Below, piece by piece: positions 5,153-46,282 of a stretch of DNA of 64,000 nt; position 1 is the stretch's first letter; each line of letters opens with the position of its first letter. The translations under genes were made by a program, and so were the position numbers. The notes under the pieces were generated by a model. The model did not search any database, was not told the DNA's origin, and was given only the letters and a program-made list of their open reading frames with translations. The DNA is taken from assembly GCF_000020725.1 (NCBI RefSeq), contig NC_011146.1, forward strand, positions 3,841,001 through 3,905,000, given 5' to 3'. This DNA comes from Citrifermentans bemidjiense Bem (GTDB lineage: Bacteria; Desulfobacterota; Desulfuromonadia; Geobacterales; Geobacteraceae).

Positions 5153-6427
5153 TCAACCCCTGAACGGCTCGAAGCTGCGCGACAGCAGGTATCCCCGCGC
5201 CTCCCCGACGGTAAAGAGGGACCCGCAGACGAGTATGAGGTCTTCATCGGCGGCGGCAGATTGCGCCTGTTGCACCCCCTGCGTCACGCTCCCGGCCTCC
5301 TGCGCCGGCACCCCGGCGGCAAGGCAGAAGCGGGCGATCTCCTCCGCCGGCAGCGCCCGTTCCAGGGCTGGGGTCACGCAGAATACCTGATCGGCCATGG
5401 GGAGCAGCGGCCCGAGTATCCCCCCGAGTTCCTTGTCCCCCATGACGCCGACCACCATGAAAAGCCTCGCGCGCGGGACCTCCGCGAGCGCCTCGGCAAG
5501 GGCGTTGGCGCCGGCTGGGTTGTGGGCGCCGTCCAAAAGCACACGCGGCGGCCCGGGGAAGAGTTCCATCCTTCCCGGCCAAAAAGCGCGCGCCATGCCG
5601 GCCGCCATCGCCTGCGGCGGCAGGGGGAAGCCGAGCCCCCCCAGTAGTTCCGCAACCGCCAGTGCCAGTGCCGCGTTGCCGCGCTGGTAGCGCCCGAAAA
5701 GCCCGACCTTGAGGTCATCCAGGGTCACCCCGATGCCGCGGTAGCAAAGCCTCTCCCCCTGCCAGAAGGCGTCGAAAGATTCCTGCTGGCGGTACAAGGG
5801 GGAGCCGATCTCGTCGGCGCGGGTTGCTATGGCCGCTTCGACGTCAGCGTGCTGCGAGGCGGATACCAGGGGCGCCCCGGGCTTGCAGATGCCGGCCTTC
5901 TCCTGAGCTATCTCCGCGAGGGTTTCCCCCAGGTACTCGGTATGCTCCAGCGAGATCGGGGTGACCGCGCAGAGGATGCCGTCGAGAGCGTTGGTGGCGT
6001 CGAGGCGCCCCCCCATGCCGGCCTCGAAGACCGCTACTTCGACCCCTTTTTCGGCGAAGTACAAAACGGCCAGGGCCGTCACTATCTCGAAGAAGGTGCT
6101 CTCCGGCGGCGCGGCGGCCATAACGCGCGCGGCCACAAGCACCACGTCCTCTTGGGATATTTCGTTGCCGTCTATGCGGATGCGCTCGGTGAAGGAGATC
6201 AGGTGCGGAGAGGTGAAGAGCCCCGTCCGGTACCCTCCGGCGCTGAGTATGGAACTGAGAAAGGAGGCGGTCGATCCCTTGCCGTTGGTGCCGACCACGT
6301 GGACGCTCCGGAACCGCTCCTGAGGATTGCCCAGCGCGGCAAGCAGCGGGGAGATCCGGGATAGCCCCGGCTTCATCCCGAAACGCCCCAAGGCGTAGAT
6401 GTGGCTGAGGGTTTCGGCGTAGGTCAT
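5153..6427 (-). CDS. folC: Bifunctional folylpolyglutamate/dihydrofolate synthase
   Basis: ATP-dependent Mur-ligase-family enzyme that adds glutamate to dihydropteroate or folates. 424 residues, the normal length. The P-loop GTNGKGS is at residues 46-52, the Mur-ligase segment SLEHTEYLG follows mid-protein, and LLDGAHNPAG marks the C-terminal domain. No clear Shine-Dalgarno precedes the ATG, so the exact start is moderately sure. A terminator separates it from accD upstream, so it probably has its own promoter and may be read through to lptD. Confidence 0.95.
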   Translation of the reverse strand: MTYAETLSHIYALGRFGMKPGLSRISPLLAALGNPQERFRSVHVVGTNGKGSTASFLSSILSAGGYRTGLFTSPHLISFTERIRIDGNEISQEDVVLVAARVMAAAPPESTFFEIVTALAVLYFAEKGVEVAVFEAGMGGRLDATNALDGILCAVTPISLEHTEYLGETLAEIAQEKAGICKPGAPLVSASQHADVEAAIATRADEIGSPLYRQQESFDAFWQGERLCYRGIGVTLDDLKVGLFGRYQRGNAALALAVAELLGGLGFPLPPQAMAAGMARAFWPGRMELFPGPPRVLLDGAHNPAGANALAEALAEVPRARLFMVVGVMGDKELGGILGPLLPMADQVFCVTPALERALPAEEIARFCLAAGVPAQEAGSVTQGVQQAQSAAADEDLILVCGSLFTVGEARGYLLSRSFEPFRG

Positions 6428-6543
6428 GACAGGCCGGGATTATAGGGAAAGCGCATGAAAAAGTCCATAAAATAGGGGCGACTGGGGAGGATTGCTCCAG
6501 CCGTCGAGACTGCTAGCGGGAAAGGGTTTCACCCCACGCAACG

Positions 6544-6584
6544 AATAAAAAAAGCGCCGGCCAGCCAACAGCTGATCCGGCGCC
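6544..6584 (-). terminator. Rho-independent terminator after accD
   Basis: On the minus strand a perfect 7-bp stem GCGCCGG/CCGGCGC with a 16-base loop is followed immediately by seven T. It lies 22 bases past the accD stop codon and ends the trpA-accD unit. Confidence 0.85.
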
Positions 6585-6605
6585 CGTGGTTCGGATGACG
6601 CCTTT

Positions 6606-7454
6606 TTAGGGGCGATAGAGCATCGTCAGGATGCTGGAGAGCTGCGACTTCATCTTGCTCCTCTCCACGATGACGTCGACCATGCCGTGGTCCAAAAGGT
6701 ACTCGGAGCGCTGGAAACCCTGCGGGAGCTTCTGCCTGATGGTCTGCTCGATGACGCGCGGGCCGGCGAAGCCGATCAGGGCCTTGGGCTCAGCCATGTT
6801 GATGTCGCCCAGCATGGCGAAGCTGGCGGTGACCCCGCCGGTGGTGGGGTCGGTAAGGATGGAGACGAAGGGAAGCCCCGCTTCGCGCAGCTTGGCCAGC
6901 GCCGCGGAGGTCTTCGCCATCTGCATGAGCGAGAGGATGCTCTCCTGCATACGCGCGCCGCCGGAAGCGGAGACTATGATGCAGGGGGTGCGGTCGGAAA
7001 GCGCGCGCTCGATGCCGCGGGTGATCTTCTCGCCCACGACGCTCCCCATGGAGCCTCCCATGAAGGAGAAGTCGAAGACGCAGATCTGCACCGGGGTCCC
7101 CTCGATGCGGCCGGAGCCGCAGATGATGGCGTCCTTGCTGCCGCCCTTGGCGAGGGCTTGGTCGATGCGGTCCTGGTAGCTCTTGGAATCCTTGAACTCG
7201 AGGAAGTCGACCGAGACGACGCCTGCGTCGAATTCGGTGAAGCTCCCCTCGTCGAGGAGAAGCTCCAGCCTCTTCTTGGAGGAGACCCGGTAATGGTGGT
7301 TGCACTTGGGGCAGACGTTGAGATTGTTCTCGATGTCCTTCGTGTAGATCGTCTCGCCGCAGCTGACGCACTTCGTCCAGAGCCCCTCGGGAACCTTCAC
7401 CCTGTGAGCCGGTCCCTTAGCCTGCGGCGGATTGTCTCTTTTAAACCAAGCCAT
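6606..7454 (-). CDS. accD: Acetyl-CoA carboxylase carboxyltransferase subunit beta
   Basis: With AccA, transfers the carboxyl group from biotin to acetyl-CoA to make malonyl-CoA for fatty acid synthesis. 282 residues. The N-terminal four-cysteine zinc ribbon is visible (Cys29, Cys32, Cys48, Cys51), followed by the crotonase-fold carboxyltransferase domain with SASGGARMQE and TTGGVTASFAMLGD. It lies downstream of trpA in the same direction, and is closed by a terminator. Confidence 0.97.
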   Translation of the reverse strand: MAWFKRDNPPQAKGPAHRVKVPEGLWTKCVSCGETIYTKDIENNLNVCPKCNHHYRVSSKKRLELLLDEGSFTEFDAGVVSVDFLEFKDSKSYQDRIDQALAKGGSKDAIICGSGRIEGTPVQICVFDFSFMGGSMGSVVGEKITRGIERALSDRTPCIIVSASGGARMQESILSLMQMAKTSAALAKLREAGLPFVSILTDPTTGGVTASFAMLGDINMAEPKALIGFAGPRVIEQTIRQKLPQGFQRSEYLLDHGMVDVIVERSKMKSQLSSILTMLYRP

Positions 7455-8491: not shown

Positions 8492-8537
8492 AAAAACAAA
8501 AAAGTCCCCCAGGTAAAAAAGGGGGATGCGGGGGACT
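8492..8537 (-). terminator. Rho-independent terminator after chemoreceptor gene
   Basis: On the minus strand AGTCCCCC and GGGGGACT form a perfect 8-bp stem followed by TTTTTTGTTTTT. It lies about 75 bases past the stop of the chemoreceptor at 8612 and closes the cytochrome-porin/cytochrome/chemoreceptor unit. Confidence 0.85.
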
Positions 8538-8611: not shown

Positions 8612-10816
8612 TCAGATCCTGAACGCGTCCACTTCCTTTTTCAAGAGCTCGGTCTGGCGGAACAGCTTGTAGACCGCCTCGTCCATGACCCGCGTCGCCT
8701 CAAGGTTAGCGTCGGTTGCCTGCTGGATGTCCTCCACCGAAACGACGATCTGCTCGCTGCCGCGGGTCTGCTCGTCGCAGGCGCGCTTTATGTGACGGAT
8801 CATCTCGGTGATGCTCTCGGTGGACTGGGCGATCAGGTTGCCGACCTTGTTCTGCTCGCGGGTGGAGGAGAGCACCTGAGAGGTGAGCCCCTTCATGTGC
8901 TCGACCGCGCCCATGATCAGCTCGCTCCCCTGCCCCTGCTCCTTGGTGGCCTTGGCGATCTGCGCCACCATCTCGGAGACCTGCTCCATCGCCTCCCGGA
9001 TCATCTGGCTTCCCTTGGCCTGCTCGACCGTAGTGCGGGCGATCTCGCCCACCTGGGCGGTAGCCTCGTTGACCCCGACCACGATCTTCGCCAGCGCCTC
9101 CCCCGATTTCTGGGAGAGAAGTTCGCCGTCGCCGATGGAGCGCTCCGCCTGGTCGATGGCCTCGACGGCGCGGCGGGTCTCGTCCTGGACCCCGCGGATC
9201 ACCTGCGAGATCTCGCGGGTGGAGCTGGAGGTACGCTCGGAGAGTTCCTTGATCTCGTCCGCGACGACGGCGAAACCCTTGCCGTGCTCACCGGCCTGGG
9301 CCGCGATGATGGCCGCGTTCAGCGCCAGGAGGTTCGTCTGCTCGGCCACCTCGTCGATGACGGAGAGGATGTCGCCGATGTCGGCGGCGCGCTCGGAGAG
9401 GGTGGCGATGACCTCGCTGGTGATCTTGGAAGCGCGCTTGATCTCCTGCATCCCGTTGATCACCGCCTCGACCGCCTCGCGGCCGGTCTCGGCATCCTCG
9501 CGCACCGACTTGGAGATGGCCGCCGTCTCGTTGGCGTTTCGCTCCACCTGCTTGATGGAGCTGTCCATCTCCATCACGGAGGAAGCGGTAGCGGTGGAGA
9601 CCTCCATGAGGCTCACCACGCCGTTACCCACCTGCTTGATGGAAGCCCCCATCTCGACGATGGACGAGCTCACCTCGTTCACCGACAGGGCCAGGTTCTC
9701 CATGTTCTGGACCACCTCCTCGACGCTTGAGGCCATCTCCAGGATGGAAGAGGAACTCTCCGACGCCGAGATGGACAGGGAATCGACGCCGTGGGCGACT
9801 CCCTTTACCGAGGTGTTGATCTGCACGATGGCTGCGGAGGTCTTGGAGACGCTTTCCGCCTGGGTCTTCGCCGAGGCCACCACCGAGTGCGAGGCCTGTG
9901 CCATGGTGTCCGAGATCCCGGCCAGCTCCGCCGCGGAGCGGAGCACCTTGCCGATCATGCCGGAGAGCTTGTCGACCATCTCGTTGAAGTCGCTTCCCAG
10001 CTTCCCGATCTCGTCGTGCGACTCGATGGTGGTGGTCGCGGTCAGATCCCCCTCGGCCCCGCGGTTGACCGCCTCACCGATGGCGCCAACCCTGGTGACG
10101 ATGTTGCGAGTGATCAGGATCCCCAGACCGACGGCGACGGCGACAGCCAGCAGGATGACCACGGCGAAGGTGATCCCGGCCGATTTCTGGATCTCGGTCA
10201 CCCGCGCGTTGGCCTGGTTCATCTGGTTGCCGACTTCCACCAGGATGTCGTCGAGGTCCGCCTTAGAGACGTCGTTGGCCTCAGTAATCTCCTCGTTGGC
10301 CAGATGGTTCAGCTTTTCGTCCGCCAGTGCGTCCTTGGCAGCCTGGTTCAGCACCCCCGCGGAAACCCCCTTGAAGAGCTCCTGCTTCTTGGCGATAAGC
10401 TCGTCCGCCACCTGCTCGAACGCGGCCCAGCTCACCAGGAACTGCCTGGTCCGTTTCTCGATCACGCTCCCCTTTGCTGCCGGAAGCACGCCGAGCTTCT
10501 TGTTACCCTCCAGGATGATCTGGGCCTGGCTCAAGAGGGTGTCCCGCTTCATGCGGTAATCCTCTATGTACTCCTCCAGTTTGTCCGGGTCGGTACGCAC
10601 CAGCGCAGCCTGCATCAGGCTCACGTGGCAGTACTTCTGGGTCACCCCCATGAGCAGCACCAGCTTCTGCTGCTTGGAGAGCTGCTCCAGGATGGTCTGG
10701 ATCTGTCCGCCGACCCTCTTCATCCCGAAAGCGCCGAAACCGCCGGTGAACGCGACCAGCAGAGCCATGATCAGGAAGGCTAATATCAGCCGGCTACGCA
10801 GCGTGAGGTCTTTCAT
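8612..10816 (-). CDS. Methyl-accepting chemotaxis protein
   Basis: Inner-membrane chemoreceptor, 734 residues. TM1 is at about residues 8-30, then a periplasmic helical region of about 170 residues of four-helix-bundle character, TM2 at about 203-227, a HAMP region ([21 protein letters not shown]), and a long cytoplasmic coiled coil. The signalling tip reads [20 protein letters not shown], with Ile and Gln where most receptors have Glu and Arg. No CxxCH heme motif is in the sensor region. The monoheme cytochrome stops 4 bases upstream and the cytochrome-porin precedes that, so transcription with them is likely. Ligand unknown; a redox-linked signal is an inference from context. Confidence 0.95.
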
Positions 10817-10820
10817 CGCG

Positions 10821-11180
10821 TTATTGCCCCGCTTCGCTCAACAGGTAGTTCATCAGGTCGACAGTGGCCTTCACTTCGGGCTTGGACATGTTGGAGTCGG
10901 GCTTTCTCAGCATCTTGATGCCGTAGGCCTTGGTGGCGGTACGGTCGAAAGGCTGGCCGGAGATCGGGGCCACGCCGGTCTGGATGGCAACGATGGTGCG
11001 CTCAAGGGTGTGGCACTTGATACATTTGACTTTCATGATGTCGTAGTTGGCTTTCATGGCCGGCGGGAAGGAAGAAGGGTCAAGGCGCATGGCGTCACCC
11101 CTGCCGACGACTCTAAACCCGGCATGGGCGCTGGTTGCGGTCGCTGCGAGAAGAAGCGAAGTAACGAGGAACTTTTTCAT
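10821..11180 (-). CDS. Periplasmic monoheme c-type cytochrome
   Basis: A 119-residue exported protein. The signal peptide ends at about residue 20 (ATSAHA), and one heme attachment motif CIKCH is at residues 53-57. Met residues in the C-terminal part ([12 protein letters not shown]) could give the second axial ligand, as in class I cytochromes c. It is placed between a cytochrome-porin and a chemoreceptor with short gaps on one strand. A role as periplasmic electron acceptor for the heme-porin is inferred from position. Confidence 0.9.
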
Positions 11181-11257
11181 TTTTAAACAATCCTCCAGGT
11201 GCTTGTTAAGGCGGCCAGGCGCCGCCTGCTGCTCTATTGCTGCTGCCTTTTCGGTGC

Positions 11258-12589
11258 CTACAGGCTGAAGGCGACCGAGGCGAACGCGATCCTGCTGATG
11301 CCGTCTGGGGCGTCGGTGAACAGGTACTCCAGGGTGAGCCTGGTGTTCTGCAGCGGCGCGTAGGCTATGGCGGGGATGTAACGCGAGGTCCCGCCCTCGG
11401 CGGTTCTTTGGTACTCATAGCGCAGAAGCGGAATCAGCTTTATCGGCGCGCCCAGATAGTACTCCCCTTCGAAGGTGTAGGCGCGGCTGTCCACGGCGGT
11501 CCTCGTCAGGTCCAGCATGGGATTCGTGTCACGGCCGAAGCTGCCGCTCCCTTTGAGGTGCAAACGCTTGTAAAGGATGTCCATCTCCGCGCCGGTGCGG
11601 CGAAAGTTGTTCAGGTTCTCAGCCACGCCCAGGTTATCGAACCTGCCGTTGCGCCCCCAGTAGCCGAAGACGCCGGTAGTGATGGTGAGGTAGTCCCAGA
11701 TGCTCTCCCCCTCCAGCTCCAGTTCGGGCTCGTGCCCTTTGAAATCAGTCCCGCCGAGCTTCACGGAGAGATGGGCGTAGCCGTCCTTCTGGTTCTGGCC
11801 GTTTCTGTCCACCAGGCCGCCGGCGGCAAAGATGCGGTTGCCCAAAAGCGCGTTCAGCTCCACCCCGTCCTCGGGGACGTCGATGCTGAAGGGGGAGTTC
11901 CCGACCAGGTAGGTGGTGGAGGCGTAAGAGGGGACGGTGACCACGCGGTTGCTCTTCTTCCAAAGAGAGAGTTTCGGCTCGAAGCGCCCGATCTTTAGGT
12001 TAATCGGCGTGTCGAGCGCATGGCGCCAGACCAGGAACAGCTCGTTTATATTCGGCGTGTTGTTGGGAGGGGTGTTGGCGCTGTTTGCCGGACTGCTGTT
12101 GTCGCCGGCGACGGGGGCCGGACTGTTGCGCTGCTGCCCTTGGGTGTACAGGTTGTAGGTCCCAAAGAAGCCGACCTGCTCCCGGAAGGAGCCGCCGGCA
12201 TGGAGCCGGAGCGACCTCGTGGAAAGATCCGTCTTGTTGCCGTCGAAGGCCTTGTCGTCGTAGGCGAAGTCAGCGGTGCCGGTCAAGGAGATGGGGATCT
12301 GTTCGGGAAGCCCCGAGATCCGTGACCACTCGTTGCCGGGCTTCGCCTCAGGCGCCGGTGCTGCAGCCGCCTGCGCGCCTTTTTTGGCGCCGGGCCAGAC
12401 GTAGCTGTTCTTCAGGAAGGCATCGCCGAACTCGTTCAATTCCGGGTAAATGGTGTGGCAGGTGGAGCACTCCGTCTTGTGCTGCCGGCTGAAGGCCGGT
12501 ATCGCCTCTGCGCGGTTGGGAGCAAGCAGAGGGGAAAGAACAAACCCCAGGGTGAGTACGGCTGCTGCTGTTTGTTTCTTTAAGAACAT
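11258..12589 (-). CDS. Cytochrome-porin fusion, Cyc2-like architecture
   Basis: A 443-residue outer-membrane protein. The signal peptide ends at about residue 29 (NRAEA). One heme motif CSTCH is at residues 41-45 in the context CHTIYPELNEFGDAFLKN, then a Pro/Ala-rich linker, then about 330 residues of alternating beta-strand pattern. A single N-terminal CxxCH with Pro-x-Leu-Asn-x-Phe-Gly just after it, fused to a barrel, is the layout of Cyc2 proteins known from Fe(II) oxidisers. True orthology to Cyc2 is not established by reading alone; an uncharacterised relative is possible. AGGAGA precedes the ATG. It heads the unit with the monoheme cytochrome and the chemoreceptor. Confidence 0.8.
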   Translation of the reverse strand: MFLKKQTAAAVLTLGFVLSPLLAPNRAEAIPAFSRQHKTECSTCHTIYPELNEFGDAFLKNSYVWPGAKKGAQAAAAPAPEAKPGNEWSRISGLPEQIPISLTGTADFAYDDKAFDGNKTDLSTRSLRLHAGGSFREQVGFFGTYNLYTQGQQRNSPAPVAGDNSSPANSANTPPNNTPNINELFLVWRHALDTPINLKIGRFEPKLSLWKKSNRVVTVPSYASTTYLVGNSPFSIDVPEDGVELNALLGNRIFAAGGLVDRNGQNQKDGYAHLSVKLGGTDFKGHEPELELEGESIWDYLTITTGVFGYWGRNGRFDNLGVAENLNNFRRTGAEMDILYKRLHLKGSGSFGRDTNPMLDLTRTAVDSRAYTFEGEYYLGAPIKLIPLLRYEYQRTAEGGTSRYIPAIAYAPLQNTRLTLEYLFTDAPDGISRIAFASVAFSL

Positions 12590-12850
12590 GGTGGTCTCCT
12601 GCAGTATTAAAAAGCATCATTACGATAAGAATAAACTAATAAATAACAATTCGCCCTATTCAAGAAAGTGCATAGAAAGAGCAGGAAGAAACGAGAGTAG
12701 ATTATTACAATATTGCTGATGTGAAGTCAACTTAACAAAAGGCTGTGAGAGTAATTGCTTTCCTCTGGTGAGCTGATCTTCATTTTTTAACTACATTTTT
12801 ACTTTGGGAAGTGCTATAAGGTAGCGTCGAAATCTCCCGGAGGTCATGCT
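12590..12850. other. Divergent intergenic region between two cytochrome genes
   Basis: About 260 bases, AT-rich compared with its surroundings, separating the minus-strand cytochrome-porin from the plus-strand multiheme lipoprotein. It must hold both promoters. A GGAGG site before the 12851 start is clear; I do not see a convincing -24/-12 site or riboswitch core. Confidence 0.5.
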
Positions 12851-14686
12851 ATGCGGCTAAAAAGTCTCCTTTTCCTCTTCCTTGTTCCGGTGCTGGTCGC
12901 CGGTTGCGGCGGCGGCACCAGCGACAACGGGGTCCCCATTTCCAAGCTGGCGGCCTCGCAGGGGTGCATGAACCTAAGCTGCCACGGCACCATGACCTCC
13001 CCGGGGACCGGGGCCGTCATCGCCGACGAATGGCGTGCTTCCGCCCACAACTTGAAAAACGGGGCCGGATGCGCCGACTGCCACGAACCGGACGCGGGAC
13101 ACCCCAACACCTGCAGCAAGTGCCACGGCGGCGGAGGCTTCGGCGTGACCAAGAACCCGGACCAGGCTGGCAAGTGCGGCAAGTGCCACGGGCTCTCCCA
13201 TCCGGGCGACGTCATGGTGGCGCGGGCGCCGCAACACTTCGGCAACATGACCGCGAGCCTTGCCAACAACAAGTACCGCGCTTCCTATGTAAGCTCCAAC
13301 TACGTGGGGAACTGCCGTGCCTGCCACAACCCCCACGATCCCAGCTCCGCAATGAACGTGAACCGCGACTGGGCCGCTTCCGGCCATGCCGACGTCCTCG
13401 CCGGGGCGAGGACCGGGTACGATTTCAAGACGCGCGGCAGCTACCAGCCCGCCAGCACCACCTTCCAGTACTACTGCGTCCGCTGCCACACCTCGACCGG
13501 CTACGTGAAGTTCGTGACCAGCGCCTTCCAGGACGTCCGTCCCTTCGCCGGGCCGGGGTACGAGGTGGTGCAGAATTATCCGCGCACCGTCGCTGCGGGT
13601 GCCGCGCAGCCGGCGGACACCCCCTCCCCGGACAAGACCAAAGAGGTCACCGCTTGCAACGTCTGCCACGACAACGGCGCAGGCCGTGCCTACAGCTGGG
13701 CCAGGCGCGCGGTGCCGCCGGTGACGATCTACTACAACTTCTCCTCTTCGAACAGCTCGCCCACGGTGAAGCTGAACAACAAAGCGACCTCCTACCCCAA
13801 CGTCGGCCCCTCGAACATCTGCCTTCCCTGCCACACCGGTCGCGGCATAGGGGCCATGATCTACGACGCCGTCGCCGCAGGGATCGATTTCAGCAACACC
13901 AATAGCCCCGGCGCGCATGACTTCGCCGCCGGCGCCGTCCTCTTCAGAAAAGGGGGGTACGAGTTCGCGGGACGAGACTACGTGCCGACCTACTTCCTTC
14001 ACGACAAAATCGGCGTCGCCAACGAACACGGCACCGGGAACGACGGCCCCTGCGTCGCCTGCCACATGAACTCCGGCAACAGCCACTTCTTCATGCCGGT
14101 GGCTTTCGACGGCACCGGTAAAATCGCCGAGATAACCAGCCGGACCTGCGCGCAGTGCCACGTCGGCCAATACGCGCTGAGCCCGGCCATCCTGCAGACC
14201 GAGAAAGAAGGTTTCGCCGCGGCGATCGCCATGCTCAACGTGCTGAAGACCGACGCGACGCTGCCGGTCGACCCGCTGAACCCGACGCGCTCGAAGGTGC
14301 GCCCCCTGGCGAACAAGAACTCGGATTACAACGCCGCCTTCCCCGGGGGAGGCGCCAACACAATGGGAGCCTTCTTCAACTCGGGGCTGCTCCAAAACGA
14401 TCCCGGCGCCTTCGCCCACAACCGGGTCTACACCAAGCGGCTCATTTATGATTCCATCGACTGGCTCAGCAACGGCGCCCTCGACGGCGACGTGGAAAGC
14501 GCCATCAACAACGCCACGCTCGCGGTAAACAGCAAGACCGGGAAGGTGTCGCTCAGCAACCCGATCCTGGGCGGGTTCTACATCCCCGAGCAGGTAGACG
14601 GCCCGGCCTACGCCGCCGCCTTCGCCAAGGTAAAGGCAGACGCAATTAAGTACCTCTTGGGCGCACCGGGCGGAGCGCGCCCCTAG
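12851..14686 (+). CDS. Multiheme c-type cytochrome lipoprotein, ten heme-type motifs
   Basis: A 611-residue lipoprotein with lipobox LVAGC (Cys19). Nine canonical CxxCH motifs (CADCH, CSKCH, CGKCH, CRACH, CVRCH, CNVCH, CLPCH, CVACH, CAQCH) plus one CX4CH (Cys39-His45, CMNLSCH) near the N-terminus, so up to ten hemes. The C-terminal third has no heme motif but holds VYTKRLIYDSIDWLSN, which recurs in the dodecaheme protein at 43168-45537 (TYARRLLYDSIDFLDN). GGAGG lies 8 bases before ATG. No barrel gene follows; the nearest outer-membrane partner is the divergent cytochrome-porin. It is likely an outer-membrane electron carrier. Confidence 0.92.
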   Translation: MRLKSLLFLFLVPVLVAGCGGGTSDNGVPISKLAASQGCMNLSCHGTMTSPGTGAVIADEWRASAHNLKNGAGCADCHEPDAGHPNTCSKCHGGGGFGVTKNPDQAGKCGKCHGLSHPGDVMVARAPQHFGNMTASLANNKYRASYVSSNYVGNCRACHNPHDPSSAMNVNRDWAASGHADVLAGARTGYDFKTRGSYQPASTTFQYYCVRCHTSTGYVKFVTSAFQDVRPFAGPGYEVVQNYPRTVAAGAAQPADTPSPDKTKEVTACNVCHDNGAGRAYSWARRAVPPVTIYYNFSSSNSSPTVKLNNKATSYPNVGPSNICLPCHTGRGIGAMIYDAVAAGIDFSNTNSPGAHDFAAGAVLFRKGGYEFAGRDYVPTYFLHDKIGVANEHGTGNDGPCVACHMNSGNSHFFMPVAFDGTGKIAEITSRTCAQCHVGQYALSPAILQTEKEGFAAAIAMLNVLKTDATLPVDPLNPTRSKVRPLANKNSDYNAAFPGGGANTMGAFFNSGLLQNDPGAFAHNRVYTKRLIYDSIDWLSNGALDGDVESAINNATLAVNSKTGKVSLSNPILGGFYIPEQVDGPAYAAAFAKVKADAIKYLLGAPGGARP

Positions 14687-32213: not shown

Positions 32214-32328
32214 AGCGTCCCCTCCCCAAGGTCCCCCCCTGAAGCAGCGCTCGCTACGGCTCTCTCTTCCCAGTTCAGCAGCAGCCTTAATGGCAACACA
32301 GGCATCTGACCAGAGACAAGGAGGATTT

Positions 32329-35016
32329 ATGCAAGGCACGCTATGGAAAAAGTTTTCAACTTTCTTGATTGCCTCAACTGCTGCAGCCGCACTGTTTCTG
32401 GGCGGCTGCGAAGGGGACAAGGGTGATCGGGGTGAACCTGGCAAGAACGCCACCTCATTCACCAATATAAGCTCCCTTACCCCGCAACAGCAGGCAAATC
32501 TCACCTTCGACCAGACCAACAGCACGGTTACCAGCGTCTCCATCAGCAGTCCGCCGGTCGTCAAGTTCAAGATCCTCGACAGCAACGGCAACCCCGTGAT
32601 CGGCATCGGCGCCAGGAACTCGACTGGGCAGCTGCAAAACCTCGGCTTCACCCTCGCGAAACTCGTTCCCGGCACCAACGGCAGCCCGTCTCACTGGGTG
32701 AACTACTTAGTGACCACCGTTCCTGCCCCGGGCTCCAGCACACCGGCTGCAGCCAGGCCACCCGAGCGCGACCGTGAGGGGACCTTGATAGACAACGGCG
32801 ATGGCACCTACCAGTACACCTTCGCCCGCGACATCACCCAGATCCAGACCCAGGTGAACGCCATGACCTTCACCGGCAACAACCGCAGAAGCGACCTGGG
32901 CGATTTGACCTATCAGCCGAGCCTTACCCACCGCCTGGTGATCCAGTACGGCGGGACCATCCTGAACACCTCCCCGTCGATTCCCTTCAAAAATGCACTC
33001 AACATCGTCTACGATTTCATCCCGGCTACCGGCCAAGTGGTGACCTCCTCGACCTCTAACGCACAGGAGCGCAACATCGTGTTCACCAAGTATTGCAACG
33101 AGTGTCACGGAAGCCCAGGCGATCCCAATAACCTCAACGACCTGGGCTTCGGCTTGGGCATCACCACGCCTCATTCCGGCCGCGTCGACACCCGCTACTG
33201 CGCGATCTGCCATACGAGCCAGCGTGCCTACGGACACGCCATCTCCGTGGCCACCAACGGCGCCTTCACCGACGGCACTTTCGTCACGGCCGAAACCACC
33301 ACCGCGGACGTGAATACCGACGACGTGCAGGTGTTGGGCGAGTTCGTGACCATGGTGCACAAGATCCACATGGGGAACAGACTGACCGAAACCGGCTACA
33401 ACTACGCCGGTGTCACGTTCAACACCATTGCCTACAGCCAGGATCCCGCCCTTTGCCGCAAGTGCCACAGGGGCGACACGCCGCAGCAACTGGCGGTCAC
33501 GCCGCAGGGTAACAACTGGAACACCATGCCCAGCCGCAAGGCCTGCGGCTCCTGCCACGACAACGTCCACTTCTCGACCGGCCTAAACCACGACGGCAAT
33601 CTGCCACAGGCGAACGACACGGCCTGCACCGGCTGCCATACCCCGACGGCTATCCAGACTTCGCACGCAAGGGCGCTCGCCAGCCCACTCAACCCGCAGC
33701 CGATCGCAGGGCTGACCAACTTCGAATACCAGCTGCAGAGCGCGACCATCAACGGGACCAGCAACGACTTGACCATCGTCTTCCGCATCCTTGGCAATGG
33801 CACCCCCATCACGCTGGCCACAGCCGCGCCCGGCCTCACCGCGCCGCTTGCCGGCTTCACCGGCAGCCCGTCCTTCCTGCTGGCCTACGCAAGCCCTCAG
33901 TTGGAGACCGGCACAGCAGTTCCGGCCGATTACAACAACCTCGGCAAAGCGGAGGCGCAACCTGCCTTGGTATCCATCGCCGCGCTGCTCAATACGACGA
34001 CTAACGCAGCTGTTGGCAGCATCGCTGGCCCGGACAGCAACGGCTTCTACACGGCGACCATCAAATCAGCGGCAGCCTTCCCGGTAGGGGCGAGTATGCG
34101 CGCAGTCGGGATGCAGAGCTACTTCACCCAGACCGGTTTTGACGCCTCGATCGCCGGCCGCCACACCAAGGCGGTCATCATACCTGTCACGGGCGACACA
34201 GCGCGCCGCACGGTAGTCGATCCCGACAAGTGCGCCAGGTGCCACGAGTTCTTCGAAGCCCACGGCGGGCAGCGGGTGTACCAGACCCAGCTCTGCGTAA
34301 CCTGCCATAACCCCAACCTGAGCACCAGCGGCCGTGCCATCTCCGACGCCAAGCTCGCCGGCTTTGCCTTCACGCCGATCCAGCTCGGCATCCTTACCAC
34401 CTGGGACCCGGCCTTCAACAAGGCCACCCCTGGATACGCCCTCAGCTTCGCTGAGTTCTCCAACAACTTCAAGGACTTGATCCACGGCATCCATGCCGGG
34501 AGCGCGGCAGAGGGCGGTATCCGCACCAACCCCATCCGCGACGTACGTAACGGCCCGGGCACCAACATCACCCTCATCGCCGGCGAAGAGATCACCTTCC
34601 CGAATCTGCTCTCCAACTGCGACGCCTGCCACCTGAGCGCCCCCGCCGGCACCAACCGCCAGACCTACAAGGCGAACCTGCCGCCCAACGTGCTGCCGTC
34701 GACCCAGGTGACTAGGAACGCCGCCGTCGTGGCCGGCGCGACCACCGCCAACATCACCGCGGCACGCACCACGGTCCCCAACCCCGAGGACCTGGTGGTG
34801 GCCCCCATCACCGCCTCCTGCGTCAGCTGCCACGACAGCGCACTGGCCAAGGCGCACATGCAGGCCAACGGCGCGCAGCTTGGCGCCGCCCTGGCAGGGC
34901 CGTCCTACACCAACATGGGCGTCCCGCGCTCGACCCTGCCGTCCGCAACCGAGCAATGCGCGCTCTGCCACGGCGAAGGGCGGGTAGCCGACGTCGTAGT
35001 GGTTCACCAGAGGTAA
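32329..35016 (+). CDS. OmcA/MtrC-type decaheme c-type cytochrome lipoprotein
   Basis: About 895 residues from an ATG preceded by AAGGAGG. The lipobox LGGC gives Cys27 as lipid-anchored residue, followed by a short collagen-like patch GDKGDRGEPGKN. Ten CxxCH motifs fall in two pentads: CNECH, CAICH, CRKCH, CGSCH, CTGCH, then after a beta-rich stretch CARCH, CVTCH, CDACH, CVSCH, CALCH. This pentaheme-beta-pentaheme plan is that of MtrC/OmcA cell-surface cytochromes which pass electrons to metals outside the cell. The barrel and two heme lipoproteins follow on the same strand. The precise terminal acceptor is not known. Confidence 0.95.
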   Translation: MQGTLWKKFSTFLIASTAAAALFLGGCEGDKGDRGEPGKNATSFTNISSLTPQQQANLTFDQTNSTVTSVSISSPPVVKFKILDSNGNPVIGIGARNSTGQLQNLGFTLAKLVPGTNGSPSHWVNYLVTTVPAPGSSTPAAARPPERDREGTLIDNGDGTYQYTFARDITQIQTQVNAMTFTGNNRRSDLGDLTYQPSLTHRLVIQYGGTILNTSPSIPFKNALNIVYDFIPATGQVVTSSTSNAQERNIVFTKYCNECHGSPGDPNNLNDLGFGLGITTPHSGRVDTRYCAICHTSQRAYGHAISVATNGAFTDGTFVTAETTTADVNTDDVQVLGEFVTMVHKIHMGNRLTETGYNYAGVTFNTIAYSQDPALCRKCHRGDTPQQLAVTPQGNNWNTMPSRKACGSCHDNVHFSTGLNHDGNLPQANDTACTGCHTPTAIQTSHARALASPLNPQPIAGLTNFEYQLQSATINGTSNDLTIVFRILGNGTPITLATAAPGLTAPLAGFTGSPSFLLAYASPQLETGTAVPADYNNLGKAEAQPALVSIAALLNTTTNAAVGSIAGPDSNGFYTATIKSAAAFPVGASMRAVGMQSYFTQTGFDASIAGRHTKAVIIPVTGDTARRTVVDPDKCARCHEFFEAHGGQRVYQTQLCVTCHNPNLSTSGRAISDAKLAGFAFTPIQLGILTTWDPAFNKATPGYALSFAEFSNNFKDLIHGIHAGSAAEGGIRTNPIRDVRNGPGTNITLIAGEEITFPNLLSNCDACHLSAPAGTNRQTYKANLPPNVLPSTQVTRNAAVVAGATTANITAARTTVPNPEDLVVAPITASCVSCHDSALAKAHMQANGAQLGAALAGPSYTNMGVPRSTLPSATEQCALCHGEGRVADVVVVHQR

Positions 35017-35175
35017 CAATAAGCGCCACAACCAGCCGGGGCACGATAACCGTGCCCCGGCCCATCGCTCCTCGAAAACACCTGCAGAACCGGGGGCCCA
35101 TCTGCCCCCGGTTTTATTTGCAACTGCATTTCCCCACCAGCAAACAGAGACGGAACCAAGAAAGGAGGAAATGTC

Positions 35176-36477
35176 TTGAAAATCCAAAAGAAAATAACGG
35201 GAGCCGTCCGTCCCTGTGTTTTGAAGCTAGCGGGAACCGCATTGATTACCTGTTCCCTGCTTGCCTTCGACCACCCGGCGGCTTACGCAACCTCGATTTC
35301 CGGAGATTCCCTGACCATCCTGCGCCTGAGGGAGAACAAGCGGGATGACCAACTGTTCCCGCTATACGAGTACCTGAACCTCTCAGCGAGCGACACCGGC
35401 AGCCAAGGGACCATATCGGTTCAGTTGGGCGGCTGGGGACGCATCGACCTGGGGGACAGAAGCAGCCAAAGAAGGAGCGACGGAGACATCCAGTATGGCT
35501 TCCTGAGCTACCGGGCCAACAAGAACAACCTCCAGTTCAACGCCGGACGCCAGTGGGTAGTCGAGGGGGTCGCCACCGAGAGGCTGGACGGCCTGTACCT
35601 GAGAACCGATCTCGTCGCCGGCTTTACCGCGGCGACCTTCGTCGGCACCCCCGTCACTACCAACCCCAACTTCGAAGGGGGAGAGCTGATCTACGGCGGC
35701 AGGATCGCCCACACAATGCCCAAGTACTATTCCATCGGCCTCTCGGCTCTAAGAAACGAGACCGACGCTGAAGGCCTGCGCGAAGAGGAAGGGGTGGACC
35801 TCTGGCTGCACCCGATACCGCAGCTGGATATAAGCGGCCGCTCCAGCTACAACTCGCTCAGTAAAGGCTGGGCCGAACACGCCTACACCCTCAGTGTGAC
35901 CCCGATGGACGCGTTGAGGCTGAGCGCATCGATGCAGCGCATCGACTATAAGGACTACTTCTACCATGTCACGACCAGCGCCCTCAGCCTCACCAACGGT
36001 ATCCTCGATCCCAACGAGGAACTCTGGAACGTCGGGGGGAGCATCGGTTTTCTCCCCACGAAGAACGTGAACGTCGCGCTGGAGTACAACCGCTACGAGT
36101 ACGAGATCGCCGGCGACGCCGACTACTACGGCGTCACCGCCAGCTTTACGACCCCTACCGCCCTGACCGCCGGTGCCTCCTTCCACCGCATGGACGGCGA
36201 CACTGGACCTTTGCGCTACAACCAATACCGGGCCTGGGCTACTCAGAAATTCGGACCGGCCGACCTGACCCTCGATTTCTTCGATGTTGATTTCGACAGC
36301 AGCATCACCGGGAGAACCAACACCTACTCCCTGGCCGCGGCCGCGGGATACAACTTCAACCGAAGCCTGAGAGTCACAGCGGACATCGACTACCAGAGGA
36401 GCACCGACTTCGACAACGAGCTGCGCGGATTGGTGAAGCTGAGTTATGCATTTGGCTTCGGAAAGGAGGGGAAATAG
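35176..36477 (+). CDS. Outer-membrane beta-barrel of electron conduit
   Basis: 433 residues. A signal peptide ends near AAYA (residue 38); the rest is alternating aromatic strands (for example YEYEIAGDADYYGVTASF, LTLDFFDVDFDSS) with no heme motif. Located between a surface decaheme cytochrome and a pentaheme lipoprotein, it is the likely barrel of a porin-cytochrome conduit, in the place of MtrB or ExtB. The start is a TTG 7 bases after GGAGG; an ATG between them (ATGTCTTGA) gives only two codons. A one-base overlap (TAGTG) links it to the next gene. Confidence 0.85.
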   Translation: MKIQKKITGAVRPCVLKLAGTALITCSLLAFDHPAAYATSISGDSLTILRLRENKRDDQLFPLYEYLNLSASDTGSQGTISVQLGGWGRIDLGDRSSQRRSDGDIQYGFLSYRANKNNLQFNAGRQWVVEGVATERLDGLYLRTDLVAGFTAATFVGTPVTTNPNFEGGELIYGGRIAHTMPKYYSIGLSALRNETDAEGLREEEGVDLWLHPIPQLDISGRSSYNSLSKGWAEHAYTLSVTPMDALRLSASMQRIDYKDYFYHVTTSALSLTNGILDPNEELWNVGGSIGFLPTKNVNVALEYNRYEYEIAGDADYYGVTASFTTPTALTAGASFHRMDGDTGPLRYNQYRAWATQKFGPADLTLDFFDVDFDSSITGRTNTYSLAAAAGYNFNRSLRVTADIDYQRSTDFDNELRGLVKLSYAFGFGKEGK

Positions 36478-36911
36478 TGAAAAAGATATCGTTGATGGTC
36501 CTGATGGGAGTGACACTGTCGTTTCTTTACGCCTGTGCCAACACCAGCAGCATAGCCCGGGTGCACCCCGAGGAGGTAAAGGGACTTCCCAGATGCGCGG
36601 AATGCCATACCGACACCTGGACCGCGCTGAACCACCAGGCACAGGACTTCTACCTGAAGCACAAATTCTACGCCGCCCAGCAGCGGGCCGCCTGCTCAAC
36701 CTGCCACAAGGAATCCTTCTGTGTCGACTGCCATGCACATAAAGAGGAAATCAAGCCCAACGACAAGTACAAGGAGAGGCCCGAGCTGAATCTGCCTCAC
36801 CGCGGCGATTACCTCAGCCGGCACAGGATCGACGGCAGGATCAATCCCGCCTCCTGCGTTAAGTGCCACGGGAGAGAAAACAACGAGAGGTGCAAGACAT
36901 GCCATCGATAA
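36477..36911 (+). CDS. Pentaheme c-type cytochrome lipoprotein
   Basis: 144 residues, lipobox LYAC (Cys20). Five CxxCH motifs: CAECH, CSTCH, CVDCH, CVKCH, CKTCH. The GTG start overlaps the barrel gene's TAG by one base and follows GGAGG. A small, heme-dense lipoprotein in this position probably carries electrons at the periplasmic side of the barrel. It overlaps the next gene by 13 bases. Confidence 0.92.
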   Translation: MKKISLMVLMGVTLSFLYACANTSSIARVHPEEVKGLPRCAECHTDTWTALNHQAQDFYLKHKFYAAQQRAACSTCHKESFCVDCHAHKEEIKPNDKYKERPELNLPHRGDYLSRHRIDGRINPASCVKCHGRENNERCKTCHR

Positions 36912-37753
36912 CCAGACCAGCTCAAGCTGTCATGCTTTGGTGCCTTTTGGTCCTGCTAGTCGCCGGTTGCGGGGACAACAACTCGCACTCAAGTTACGAC
37001 CCCGACCTGGGTGCCCATCCCGACGACTGGCTTCCAGCCCGGCATGCGACAGCCGCCTTCGGGCACCTGCAGGACTGTACCCCGTGCCACGGCACGGATC
37101 TGACCGGCGGCATCTCCAAGGTCGCCTGCACGGGTTGCCATCTGGGCAGCCCAACGGACGTGCACCCGCTTGAGTGGGGGGCGCACGATTACGCACGGCA
37201 CGGCGAGTGGATCCGGCAGCAAGTGCTGCAAACAGGGCGCACACTGGGGGATATCGGCACCCTGGGGTCCGGCACCCTCGGCACCACGCTCATCGGTCCG
37301 GCCACCCAGGTGACTGCTAGTTGCGCCACCGCCTTCTGCCACGGCAGCAACTACCGGGGTGTGGCAAATTCCGGCCCGTCCTGCTTCGATGACCAACCGG
37401 GGGTAGTCGATTCCAGCTGCCACATCGGCAACGCCTTCTCGGTCCACCCGATAAGCTGGCTGCCGCCCAGACTCACCACCAGGGTAGGATTCCCCGTCCC
37501 GACCATCCTTCCTGCCCACGGCGTGTACGTCGAGACCTACGGCCCCGCCGAGTGCTCGATACCTATCTGCCACGGTACCGGCACACCCGAGACCATACAC
37601 GTAGGCGCCGGTAGCACCAGGATAACGGGGACCACGCTCACCACGCCGAACTTCGGCCAGACCGGATTCACCGGCTTTGCCATGTTCACCACAGGGACCG
37701 CAAGGGTCCAGGTCGCCAACACGGGACGCTCCTGCGCGGCGTGCCATTTCTGA
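36899..37753 (+). CDS. Cytochrome lipoprotein with CX4CH and CX11CH heme-type motifs
   Basis: 284 residues, lipobox LVAGC (Cys24). Canonical motifs: CTPCH, CTGCH and CAACH, the last two residues before the C-terminus. Non-canonical: CATAFCH and CSIPICH (both CX4CH) and a CX11CH ending in DSSCH. Up to six hemes if all are used. GAGAGG precedes the ATG at 36899, which lies inside the end of the pentaheme gene. It closes the conduit locus. CX4CH hemes need no special lyase in some species but CX11 or longer usually do; that use is inferred. Confidence 0.85.
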   Translation: MPSITRPAQAVMLWCLLVLLVAGCGDNNSHSSYDPDLGAHPDDWLPARHATAAFGHLQDCTPCHGTDLTGGISKVACTGCHLGSPTDVHPLEWGAHDYARHGEWIRQQVLQTGRTLGDIGTLGSGTLGTTLIGPATQVTASCATAFCHGSNYRGVANSGPSCFDDQPGVVDSSCHIGNAFSVHPISWLPPRLTTRVGFPVPTILPAHGVYVETYGPAECSIPICHGTGTPETIHVGAGSTRITGTTLTTPNFGQTGFTGFAMFTTGTARVQVANTGRSCAACHF

Positions 37754-43167: not shown

Positions 43168-45537
43168 TTACGGACGTTCAGATGCGTTCCATACGAAGGT
43201 GGTGCGGTTGTAGCCGGCAAGGTACTTGAAGCTCTCCGTAGTCCCGGTGTTGGAGTTGGCGCCCTTGGTGTAGATGTCTGCGCCGGCGGCGTCCTTCATG
43301 CCGGAGGCAAGCGCGGTGGCTCCGGTGGAGAGGTCCATGGTTTTGTTGTCGAGGAAGTCGATGCTGTCGTAGAGCAGCCTGCGGGCGTAGGTGCGAGCGT
43401 GGGCATGCGCCGCCGGATCGCGCTTCAGCACGTTGATGTTGAAGCAGGCCCCCATCAGCTTCTCAGCCTCGGCAGCGGTAAGAGCACCACCGCGGGTCCA
43501 GTCTTTCACCGCGGTTCCCGCGGCAAGGTTGTCGTCGTAGAAGTACGGGTAGGCTGCCTGGTTGTAGCTGATGTTGTAGTTGGTCTTCAGCGACTTCAGT
43601 GCAAGAGCGATTGCGTTCTCGAACGGAAGAGCACCTTCATCGTCGATGAATGCCTCAAGGTCGGCCGGGGTTTTGACATCGTGACACTTGGAGCAAACGT
43701 TGTCGATAGTCTTCTGCCCCAACACAAGCGTGTGATCGCCGGCAGCATAGTGGCAGGTCACGCAGGGGCCGTCGGAGTCGAGGTTGCCGGCGACGAAGAA
43801 GGCAGTGTTGTGGCTGTCGCCGTTGATGGCGCTGGTGCCGAGTTTGCGGTGGGTAGAGGTCAGCTTGCCCTTGACGGCGGCGCTGTTGACATCGACAGTG
43901 TTGTCGGCGTCAGAAGTAAGGGTCTGGCCGTAGGAAACGATGGCGGTGCCGGTGGTGCCAGGAACCTGGGTGTTGGCAGGTACGAAGTTGGTGTACCCGA
44001 TCTTCACGTACATGAGGCCTGCGGCTGCCATGTAGTGGGAGTTCACGAAGCTAACGTTGTTGAAGGGGTTGGCTGCGGCGGTGAGGTCTGTGATGGAATT
44101 ACCGCTGGCCTGGCCGACGTGGCAGACGATGCAGACGTTTGAAGCCTTCACGTCAGGATAGGTAGCAACTGCGCCCTGGAAGTTGTAGTCGGCCTTGATG
44201 GCGCCCGGTGCGCGCAGCTCGCCGGTGCCCGCATTCTTGTGGCAGCCCCAGCAGTAGAGGACCTCGTTTTGTACGGACCCCGTGGTTGCAGTCCAACCGC
44301 TCAGGTGCGAGAAGTCGTTGTTTGCCGGGTTGTAGGTGGTCGGGGCTGTCATGTAGTTGGCAGTACCGGTGGAAGTATGGCATTTCTGGCAGGCCGCGCG
44401 GCCGGTCCTGTCGCCGGCGACGGTGTCGTTGGTCTTATCCCAGTTGTAGTGGGTCCAGGCCTGTGCCTCGGTATCGGTGATGCCGGCGGCCATGACTGCA
44501 TCGGTCATCCCCTGCGAACGGTCGTAGGTGCCGTCTGCTTTTTTCGGGTATGCGTCGACAGCAGCGTACTTCACGGCGAGCAGTCCGCCCGCATGGCCGG
44601 ACTTAGCCCAGTCGGTGTAGATAGTGGCTTCAGGCGTGGTGCGGACATAGGTGCCGGTTGCGGTACGCGACAGGATGCTGGTGTTGGTCTTGGACTCGTG
44701 GCCATGGCAGTCAAAGCACGGATCGGCGCTGTTGGTGCGGATGTTGTAGCCTTCCACCTTCGCGGTAAGCGGGTCGTCGAAGTGGGTGGAGGCAATAACC
44801 CTGTTCCACGCGGTGTTGTGGAAGAACTTGGCGGTGCCGTTGCTGCCGCTGGCAACCAGGGTGCCGTTCGGGTTCAGATAAGTGTGGCACTGGGTGCAGA
44901 GCTTGTACTGATCGCTGCCGGTCTGGACCTGTGCGCCTAAGGTGACGCTCGGGTTCCAGTTCGCGTCGAAGCGCAGGTCTTGCGGTTTATGGGTAACGTG
45001 GCAGGTGTTGCACATGATAGCCCTGGCGTTGGCTACCGTGCCCGGGGCGTTGACGAGAGCATCCATGACCGTCTTGTCGCCGGTGAAGCCGAACTGCGCG
45101 GCAAGAACTGCGCCTTCGTGGGTGTGGCAGCGGTTGCACTTCTCTTCGCCGTTTTCGGTGACGGCGTTGAAGTGAATAGATGCCTTGTAATTGGTCACCA
45201 GCTTGTTGCTGTCGTGGCAGGTCTTGCACTGGTCCGGACCCGGTTTCGGGTAGGGCATGGGGCCTACGCCGTTGTGCTGTGCGCCGCCGCCGTGGCAGTC
45301 CTGACAGCCGACGTTCTGCAGGGCGTGAACGGATTGCGCGTAGTCGTCATAGATGACACGGCCAGTCAGCTTTTCGCGGGCGCTGCCGTGGCACTGGGCG
45401 CAGAGGGTCTCGTCTACTTTGGCAACGTTGCCGGCCGTGAGATTCCCCTCTTTGTGACTGGTACCGCAGCCGGCAAAGACGGCGGTCATCAGTAGTGAAG
45501 CGATTACGGCCGAATACTTAAATACCTTTTTACTCAT
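43168..45537 (-). CDS. OmcB-like dodecaheme outer-membrane cytochrome lipoprotein
   Basis: 789 residues from the ATG 7 bases after AGGAGG. Lipobox FAGC (Cys24). Twelve CxxCH motifs: CAQCH, CQDCH, CKTCH, CNRCH, CNTCH, CTQCH, CFDCH, CQKCH, CWGCH, CIVCH, CVTCH, CSKCH. Twelve hemes and a lipoprotein anchor match OmcB/OmcC of G. sulfurreducens, and the octaheme and barrel genes lie upstream in the same order. The C-terminal TYARRLLYDSIDFLDN segment is shared with the lipoprotein at 12851-14686. It should receive electrons through the barrel and deliver them to extracellular metals; sequence-level orthology to OmcB was not tested. Confidence 0.93.
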   Translation of the reverse strand: MSKKVFKYSAVIASLLMTAVFAGCGTSHKEGNLTAGNVAKVDETLCAQCHGSAREKLTGRVIYDDYAQSVHALQNVGCQDCHGGGAQHNGVGPMPYPKPGPDQCKTCHDSNKLVTNYKASIHFNAVTENGEEKCNRCHTHEGAVLAAQFGFTGDKTVMDALVNAPGTVANARAIMCNTCHVTHKPQDLRFDANWNPSVTLGAQVQTGSDQYKLCTQCHTYLNPNGTLVASGSNGTAKFFHNTAWNRVIASTHFDDPLTAKVEGYNIRTNSADPCFDCHGHESKTNTSILSRTATGTYVRTTPEATIYTDWAKSGHAGGLLAVKYAAVDAYPKKADGTYDRSQGMTDAVMAAGITDTEAQAWTHYNWDKTNDTVAGDRTGRAACQKCHTSTGTANYMTAPTTYNPANNDFSHLSGWTATTGSVQNEVLYCWGCHKNAGTGELRAPGAIKADYNFQGAVATYPDVKASNVCIVCHVGQASGNSITDLTAAANPFNNVSFVNSHYMAAAGLMYVKIGYTNFVPANTQVPGTTGTAIVSYGQTLTSDADNTVDVNSAAVKGKLTSTHRKLGTSAINGDSHNTAFFVAGNLDSDGPCVTCHYAAGDHTLVLGQKTIDNVCSKCHDVKTPADLEAFIDDEGALPFENAIALALKSLKTNYNISYNQAAYPYFYDDNLAAGTAVKDWTRGGALTAAEAEKLMGACFNINVLKRDPAAHAHARTYARRLLYDSIDFLDNKTMDLSTGATALASGMKDAAGADIYTKGANSNTGTTESFKYLAGYNRTTFVWNASERP

Positions 45538-45571
45538 TTTCAATCCTCCTTAGTTGATGGCCAACTAGCAG

Positions 45572-46267: not shown

Positions 46268-46282
46268 AGTAGCACCCCCTTT

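Follow-up and report, generated by a model that had tools for sequence, protein, structure and literature searches.

A predicted single-heme outer-membrane barrel, a monoheme cytochrome and a chemoreceptor in a conserved gene unit of Citrifermentans bemidjiense: a possible link between surface electron exchange and chemotaxis

Layout and transcription signals of the gene unit

The window analyzed in this study is a stretch of 64,000 nucleotides of Citrifermentans bemidjiense Bem (GCF_000020725.1, contig NC_011146.1, positions 3,841,001 to 3,905,000), the genome of which is one contig of 4,615,150 bases. Three genes, hereafter B, C and M, lie head to tail on the minus strand of the window. Gene B (11258-12589) encodes a predicted single-heme outer-membrane barrel of 443 residues, with the heme motif CSTCH at residues 41-45 and 16 predicted strands. 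It is followed, after 77 bases, by gene C (10821-11180), which encodes a periplasmic-type monoheme cytochrome of 119 residues with a single CIKCH at residues 53-57. Four bases further on begins gene M (8612-10816), encoding a methyl-accepting chemotaxis receptor of 734 residues with HAMP and MCPsignal domains, a predicted four-helix-bundle sensor and no CXXCH motif. An earlier note on this DNA had described the same arrangement and gaps, which the coordinates reproduce; the heme motifs and the receptor domains that it named were borne out by motif reading and by Pfam. The three-gene unit of that note is real and conserved, but the note had overlooked a fourth gene, X (12851-14686, plus strand), which is divergent from B and encodes a ten-heme lipoprotein-type cytochrome with nine CXXCH motifs, one CX4CH motif and a PF22113 domain.

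The unit is closed on the minus strand by an intrinsic terminator 3' of M (8492-8537), as had been claimed before. Its 8-base-pair stem, in which AGTCCCCC (8537-8530) pairs with GGGGGACT (8510-8503), its 19-nucleotide loop and its T run were found by reading. A terminator scan gave a 5-pair version of this hairpin and nine terminator-like sites in the whole region, where 6.2 were expected; between B and M it gave none on the minus strand. Upstream of B, the sole sigma-70-like site of the promoter scan was found at 12730-12701 on the minus strand, and one such site is at chance level (0.9 +/- 1.0 expected). The 41-base promoter-like block around it (12700-12740, minus; TTGACT-18-AATAAT with a CAATATTG palindrome) is nearly invariant in ten aligned genomes out of the 18 genomes of the genus with B. 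The nearly invariant pattern upstream of B in the same alignment reads TTTTGTTAAGTTGACTTCAC-TC--CAATATTGTA-TAATC.

In 16 of 17 fetched loci of the host genus with the order B-C-M (the window's own excluded), the start of M lies 4-5 bases after the stop of C. In the remaining locus, L035, the frames of C and M share one base (L and G numbers denote our loci and genomes). Transcription of M from a promoter of its own, which the earlier note had named as a result that would count against the unit, is argued against by this spacing. B, C and M are very likely transcribed as one message in the host genus. Outside the genus the gap between C and M is wider in many loci, reaching 302 bases without an intervening gene.

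Distribution of the gene order

We searched 277 genomes of the class Desulfuromonadia with profiles of C, B and the M sensor (E <= 1e-6 for B and E <= 1e-15 for the M sensor), and joined genes that lie within 2.5 kb of each other. Left out of the combined count are one split cytochrome piece (G276) and 12 barrel rows matching only the N-terminal heme stretch, among them a fragment of the G255 barrel, which is still represented by its main piece. C was found in 93 genomes and B in 83, or in 75 when the eight genomes recognized by the heme stretch only are set aside. B is near C in 73 of these 75, and the remaining two (G186 and G236) have B at a contig end. The M sensor was found in 55 genomes and is near C in 44 of them. 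The order B-C-M is carried by 34 of the 277 genomes and is thus not unique to one genome, the point on which the earlier note had wished its proposal to be checked. The adjacency of B, C and M is therefore not a matter of chance. B followed by C without M was seen in 34 genomes, C followed by M without an adjacent B in eight, and M divergent from B-C in two genomes of another family; the search also gave 16 stand-alone M-type receptors.

Six of the eight C-M genomes (G016, G025, G027, G033, G177 and G205) have no B match at E <= 1e-6; these are mostly drafts, and G177 is 81% complete. Of the other two, G019 has B beside another copy of C, and G186 has B on another contig. Since six genomes retain C and M without a B match, the receptor appears to follow C rather than the conduit. 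The conduit without the receptor and the receptor without the conduit both retain C, and C is therefore the shared link. In six of 42 co-directional cases (G019, G186-G189 and G205), C and M are separated by a gene for a PstS-like binding protein (PF12849). The same protein is paired with C in loci without M (L068, L072, the second copy of L082, and L116). In L069, a heme chemoreceptor with an Mcp40H-20 sensor (5565-7217, minus) is located just upstream of, and divergent from, the genes for C, the binding protein and M.

Outside the host order, C is also found beside receptors of other kinds. In G120, a CCP/MauG diheme peroxidase gene is followed by C and by a receptor with a Pfam 4HB_MCP_1 sensor (E 1e-27); G121 has C and the same type of receptor, after which the contig ends. 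Among 395 genomes drawn from the phylum, C was found in 15, six of them outside the class, and a search of 12 genomes of the second class gave C in the same six. C is directly upstream of a receptor gene in five of these six, and the sixth has a receptor gene in the cluster. G297 and G492 carry receptor, B, C and receptor in a row. G470 has a receptor upstream of B, then B and C, and its gene after C is not a receptor. X and B are divergent from C and a receptor in G512, while G551 shows the order B, X, C, receptor, plus a second C without a receptor. G570 repeats the G512 pattern across two contigs, with the C before the receptor cut by the contig start. The gap between C and the receptor is 4-5 bases in G512, G551 and G570. 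The receptors of the second class share with M the signalling domain only; of four tested, two showed a Cache domain below cut-off and two no named sensor. L122 (2758-5124, plus) and L120 (2697-5063, plus) carry another receptor-like frame upstream of B, and B-C is thus flanked by receptors on both sides.

It could be argued that the genes are neighbors by inheritance only, that is, that M belongs to a block of trpA-, accD- and folC-like genes beside which B, C and X were inserted once. Of 41 fetched loci that have both C and M, 33 place M beside trpA-like genes, mostly together with accD- and folC-like genes; one further locus (L111) has M at such a site without C, which gives 34 loci in all, and the genus shares one arrangement. 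However, M also lies beside C at holA-like genes (G027 and G033), at an agmatine-deiminase-like gene (G195) and at other sites (G196, G132 and G133), while the contigs of G016 and G020 are too short to place its flanking genes. Outside the host order C stands beside other receptors, and gaps of 4-5 bases are seen in two classes. In a tree built from 40 sensor domains, four changes of label are required for the receptors lacking C, three of which well-supported branches make unavoidable; the pairing of C and M was therefore gained or lost several times. The host genome holds about 35 receptor genes (41 rows merged) in 4.6 Mb, so that a receptor beside any given gene is rare by chance. Genomes from the same genus do not count independently toward the pairing; its repetition at different sites and in two classes nevertheless cannot be sufficiently explained by chance. 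We therefore regard inheritance alone as highly improbable.

The ten-heme cytochrome X and the conduit

X matches PF22113 (MtrC/MtrF domain II/IV) with 44.2 bits against a cut-off of 30, and the X of the second class matches it as well (59.7 bits in G551). A lipobox, LVAGC, was read by eye, and the surface location of X is putative. Comparison of X with solved structures gave nothing convincing (one hit, E 0.37). Neighborhoods of B were fetched from 50 of the 75 genomes in which the match to B extends past the heme stretch. In 46 of these 50 loci X is no more than 2.2 kb from B, and in 43 no more than 600 bases away. Three of the others (L088, L089 and L117) have no X near B, and L060 stops at a contig end. 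The genomes in which X was not found near B are G297, G470, G492, G132, G133 and G249, and in G036 B stands at a contig end. In one family (L057, L097, L107 and L114 among others), X, B and C are co-directional. Since X is close to B in most loci, the core of the conduit is taken to be X-B-C.

The set resembles the porin-cytochrome conduits OmcB/Pcc, MtrCAB and ExtABCD (PMC4245776, PMC5585712) in having a surface-type multiheme lipoprotein with an MtrC/MtrF domain, an outer-membrane barrel and a periplasmic cytochrome. The surface multiheme lipoprotein of the Pcc/Mtr type is represented by X, with its ten heme motifs and PF22113. The multiheme periplasmic cytochrome within a heme-free barrel, on the other hand, has no counterpart here: the barrel has a single heme of its own, the periplasmic partner is monoheme, and a chemoreceptor lies in the operon. 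EsnABCD (PMC5585712) is related to the unit but different.

Two further clusters of this kind were noticed in the window, which thus holds three electron-conduit-like clusters. The first (32290-37753, plus) consists of four genes, encoding a lipoprotein-like product of 908 residues with ten CXXCH motifs, a porin-like protein of 433 residues that matches Porin_4 just below cut-off, a five-heme and a three-heme protein. The second (43168-47497, minus) has genes for 12-heme, eight-heme and barrel-like (404 residues) proteins in a row, like an OmcB-type conduit. The G. bemidjiensis genome is reported to hold 84 c-type cytochrome genes (PMC2996986), and the part of that paper available contains no discussion of the B-C-M unit.

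The barrel B and its relation to Cyc2

Neither B nor C matched any family of Pfam or NCBIfam at E <= 1, and Porin_O_P was matched weakly by four of 14 relatives of B (best E 8e-6). The structure model of B has 16 strands with a mean pLDDT (predicted local distance difference test score) of 73.8, and most of its heme stretch (residues 24-52) is below 50. OmpU, OmpF, PorB and OprP were the Foldseek matches of this model.

Cyc2 is described by Keffer et al. 2021 (PMC8406198) as a fused cytochrome-porin with one heme, 16 strands, the motif AXPXFAR[QK][TY] before the heme site and PXL after it. The earlier note had given B a Cyc2-like layout. We compared these features in 128 B proteins, comprising the best 120 of 733 hits and eight rows from the loci and the window. 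Exactly one CXXCH heme site is present in all 128, and PXL follows it in 126; the window's B reads PELNEFG at residues 49-55, after CSTCH. Its 443 residues exceed the Cyc2 minimum of 365, and the 16-strand porin is predicted. The strict motif before the heme site, however, was found in only one of the 128, the window's B reading AIPAFSRQH, although 121 show the looser form AxPx[FY]xRxx. As a control, the strict motif was found in 108 of 120 members of a strict-motif family, which was reached from one Methylocystis plasmid protein and stands in for true Cyc2 references; a Cyc2 reference sought among solved structures gave no hit. With hhalign, the B profile matched this family at 98.4% (E 9e-15) over 62 columns of the heme domain, and the barrel was outside the match.

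Because the strict motif is absent, B is not classed as Cyc2. By its profile, B is a relative of Cyc2 in the heme domain. For the layout proposed earlier, and for the earlier note's condition that the barrel should not fall outside Cyc2-related clades, the outcome is mixed: heme-domain homology, the single heme, PXL and the 16 predicted strands are in its favor, and the strict motif is not. The likeness to Cyc2 (PMC8406198) is one CXXCH before a predicted 16-strand barrel, a related heme domain and PXL. The differences are the missing strict motif in the window's B, a barrel that cannot be aligned by profile with the strict-motif set tried, and the company that B keeps, namely a ten-heme lipoprotein and a receptor; X is no part of Cyc2 as described in the available text of that paper.

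These facts bear on the possibility that B and C are a Cyc2-type Fe(II) oxidase, in which Fe(II) would enter the barrel and reduce the heme of B and then C, and M would guide the cell toward Fe(II). The homologous heme domain, the single heme, the predicted strands and the frequent PXL are in keeping with it, but the rarity of the strict motif, the end of the profile match at the heme domain and the presence of X with B in 46 of 50 loci speak against it. In addition, PMC6773877 describes the closely related Geomonas as ferric-reducing. We consider an Fe(II) oxidase improbable. The statement of the earlier note that electrons enter through the barrel is unsupported as written: either direction is possible, the ten-heme X adjoins B, and C and M are kept in six genomes without a B match.

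Two side observations concern the strict-motif family. In L128 (4827-8597), the Methylocystis plasmid gene with the strict motif is followed by three annotated c-type cytochrome genes. Its protein has 4991 homologues at E <= 0.001, and most of the 120 listed are unnamed.

The cytochrome C

Met90 of C is invariant in an alignment of 23 rows and, from this conservation, is the probable second heme ligand. Against solved structures, C gave a weak match confined to the heme-attachment stretch. Where the barrels are equally diverged, C is more strongly conserved near M in all six identity bins (for example 0.74 against 0.56, 0.77 against 0.67, 0.85 against 0.76). This comparison covers 32 loci with M and 11 without it; its pairs are not independent of each other, and the two sets differ in clade. 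The positions at which C differs according to the presence of M show mostly conservative substitutions that track the clades. The C homologues of the second class (L120-L126) have CX4CH or CX6CH instead of CXXCH.

C was also seen in other company. In L066 (5885-8416) and L109 (7603-9663), a C homologue adjoins a flavoprotein judged by eye to be similar to CoA-disulfide reductases, and L066 also has a rhodanese-like gene. In L067, L097, L100-L103, L107 and L114, C occurs with two conserved genes, encoding about 321 residues (DUF4388/DUF2226) and 249 residues (membrane-type), with or without X and B.

The receptor M and its sensor

Pfam identified MCPsignal (154.7 bits, cut-off 34.6) and HAMP (41 bits, cut-off 25) in M, and its four-helix sensor models matched below cut-off only. 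The structure model of the sensor is a four-helix bundle, and three sensor residues, Tyr87, Lys144 and Asp189, are invariant. M has no CXXCH and no match to PF21563, and so is not a heme sensor of the Mcp40H-20 type. Among solved sequences the sensor matched PilJ (E 0.0026), and its model aligns to LytSN (which acts with the binding protein XylFII), TorS (with TorT), PilJ and MCP2201. Foldseek gave nothing at E <= 0.001 for the sensor model; among its best matches are receptors to which amino acids or nitrate bind directly.

Paralogues of M were noticed near other cytochromes. In L112 (906-11135) and L110 (5135-11288), an M-type receptor paralogue adjoins an octaheme cytochrome. L112 also has a DUF3373 protein, a decaheme cytochrome and an MtrB/PioB barrel, which gives the M receptor family a second link to a conduit-like cluster.

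The sensor results raise another explanation of the unit. M may sense a soluble small molecule, such as the donor, acceptor or shuttle of the conduit or an anion on the PstS-like protein, and be merely co-expressed with C, which would not be its ligand. The direct binders among the Foldseek matches are in line with this, as is the binding-protein gene between C and M in six genomes. The sensor also differs by lineage, being a predicted four-helix bundle in the host order, four-helix by Pfam in G120 and G121, and a weak Cache domain or none in the second class. What speaks against it is that six genomes retain C and M without a B match, and that C and the binding protein are paired without M. 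We hold this explanation, the main rival of the reading given below, to be possible but less likely.

A possible link between electron exchange and swimming

Of the readings considered, the results are best accounted for by one in which electrons would cross the outer membrane by way of X, B and C, and M would read the state of C, so that swimming would depend on electron exchange at the cell surface. X would meet the electron partner outside the cell. The heme of B, at the periplasmic mouth of the pore, would relay electrons between X and C. The path could run in either direction, with C filled from the outside or emptied to it. C would then carry the charge in the periplasm, where it would be read by M, which is likely co-transcribed. 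C may alter its binding to the M sensor by its redox or heme state, or may signal via a third periplasmic protein, which would be the PstS-like one in six genomes. Gene order, heme motifs and conservation are observed and the folds are predicted, whereas the common transcript, the electron path, contact between C and M, redox reading and taxis are what we infer; the reading is tentative and in our judgment stands close to an even chance.

Several observations weigh against it. Many B-C units are without M. In the second class C has a changed heme motif, and heme attachment there is only putative. Other sensor domains stand beside C in other lineages, which weakens the idea of a fixed contact between C and M. 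A soluble ligand would explain the variety of the sensors, the altered motif and the B-C units without M equally well, and that explanation is only mildly disfavored.

The reading in which M reads C has a precedent in a known system. In the TorT-TorS-TorC system (PMC11727998), TorT signals trimethylamine N-oxide (TMAO) to TorS, and TorC binds the periplasmic domain of TorS with a KD of ~1 uM, holo and apo forms alike. There a periplasmic sensor, with a fold like that predicted for M, makes contact both with a binding protein and with a c-type cytochrome. TorS, however, is a histidine kinase for gene control, whereas M is a chemoreceptor and its contact with C is putative. By this analogy C, the PstS-like protein and M would be a parallel, close in kind, to TorC, TorT and TorS. 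The Geobacter heme chemoreceptors GSU0582 and GSU0935 (PMC8396549) give chemotaxis a periplasmic redox input through a c-type heme, but their heme is inside a PAS-like sensor, while here the receptor lacks a heme motif and the heme protein is a separate neighbor. When Shewanella congregates at minerals, its taxis toward insoluble acceptors depends on genes of an outer-membrane conduit and on the chemoreceptor SO_2240 (PMC5789149). SO_2240 differs in having a Cache domain, and the available text of that paper describes no shared operon.

In its furthest form, the reading would make the unit an electrochemical antenna: X touches an outside donor or acceptor, B relays, C reports, and M steers the flagella by the redox state of C, so that the cell would sense extracellular redox potential along a wire of its own, other receptors having been plugged into the C port in other lineages. 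We consider this full form rather unlikely.

It has long been asked how metal-respiring bacteria locate electron partners that are insoluble or lie outside the cell. The known inputs to such taxis are heme-bearing receptors and the conduit-dependent congregation of Shewanella, for which no gene link is described in the available part of PMC5789149. Among the published titles and abstract openings covered, which largely leave out subscription papers, none was found describing the B-C-M unit. A conduit and a chemoreceptor, each of a known kind, are here newly joined in one unit. The C-receptor gene pair seems to outlive the loss of the conduit. Conduit, periplasmic cytochrome and receptor stay linked in many genera and in two classes, which provides a defined, deletable four-gene unit in cultured genera, in which the coupling of a conduit to taxis can be tested directly.

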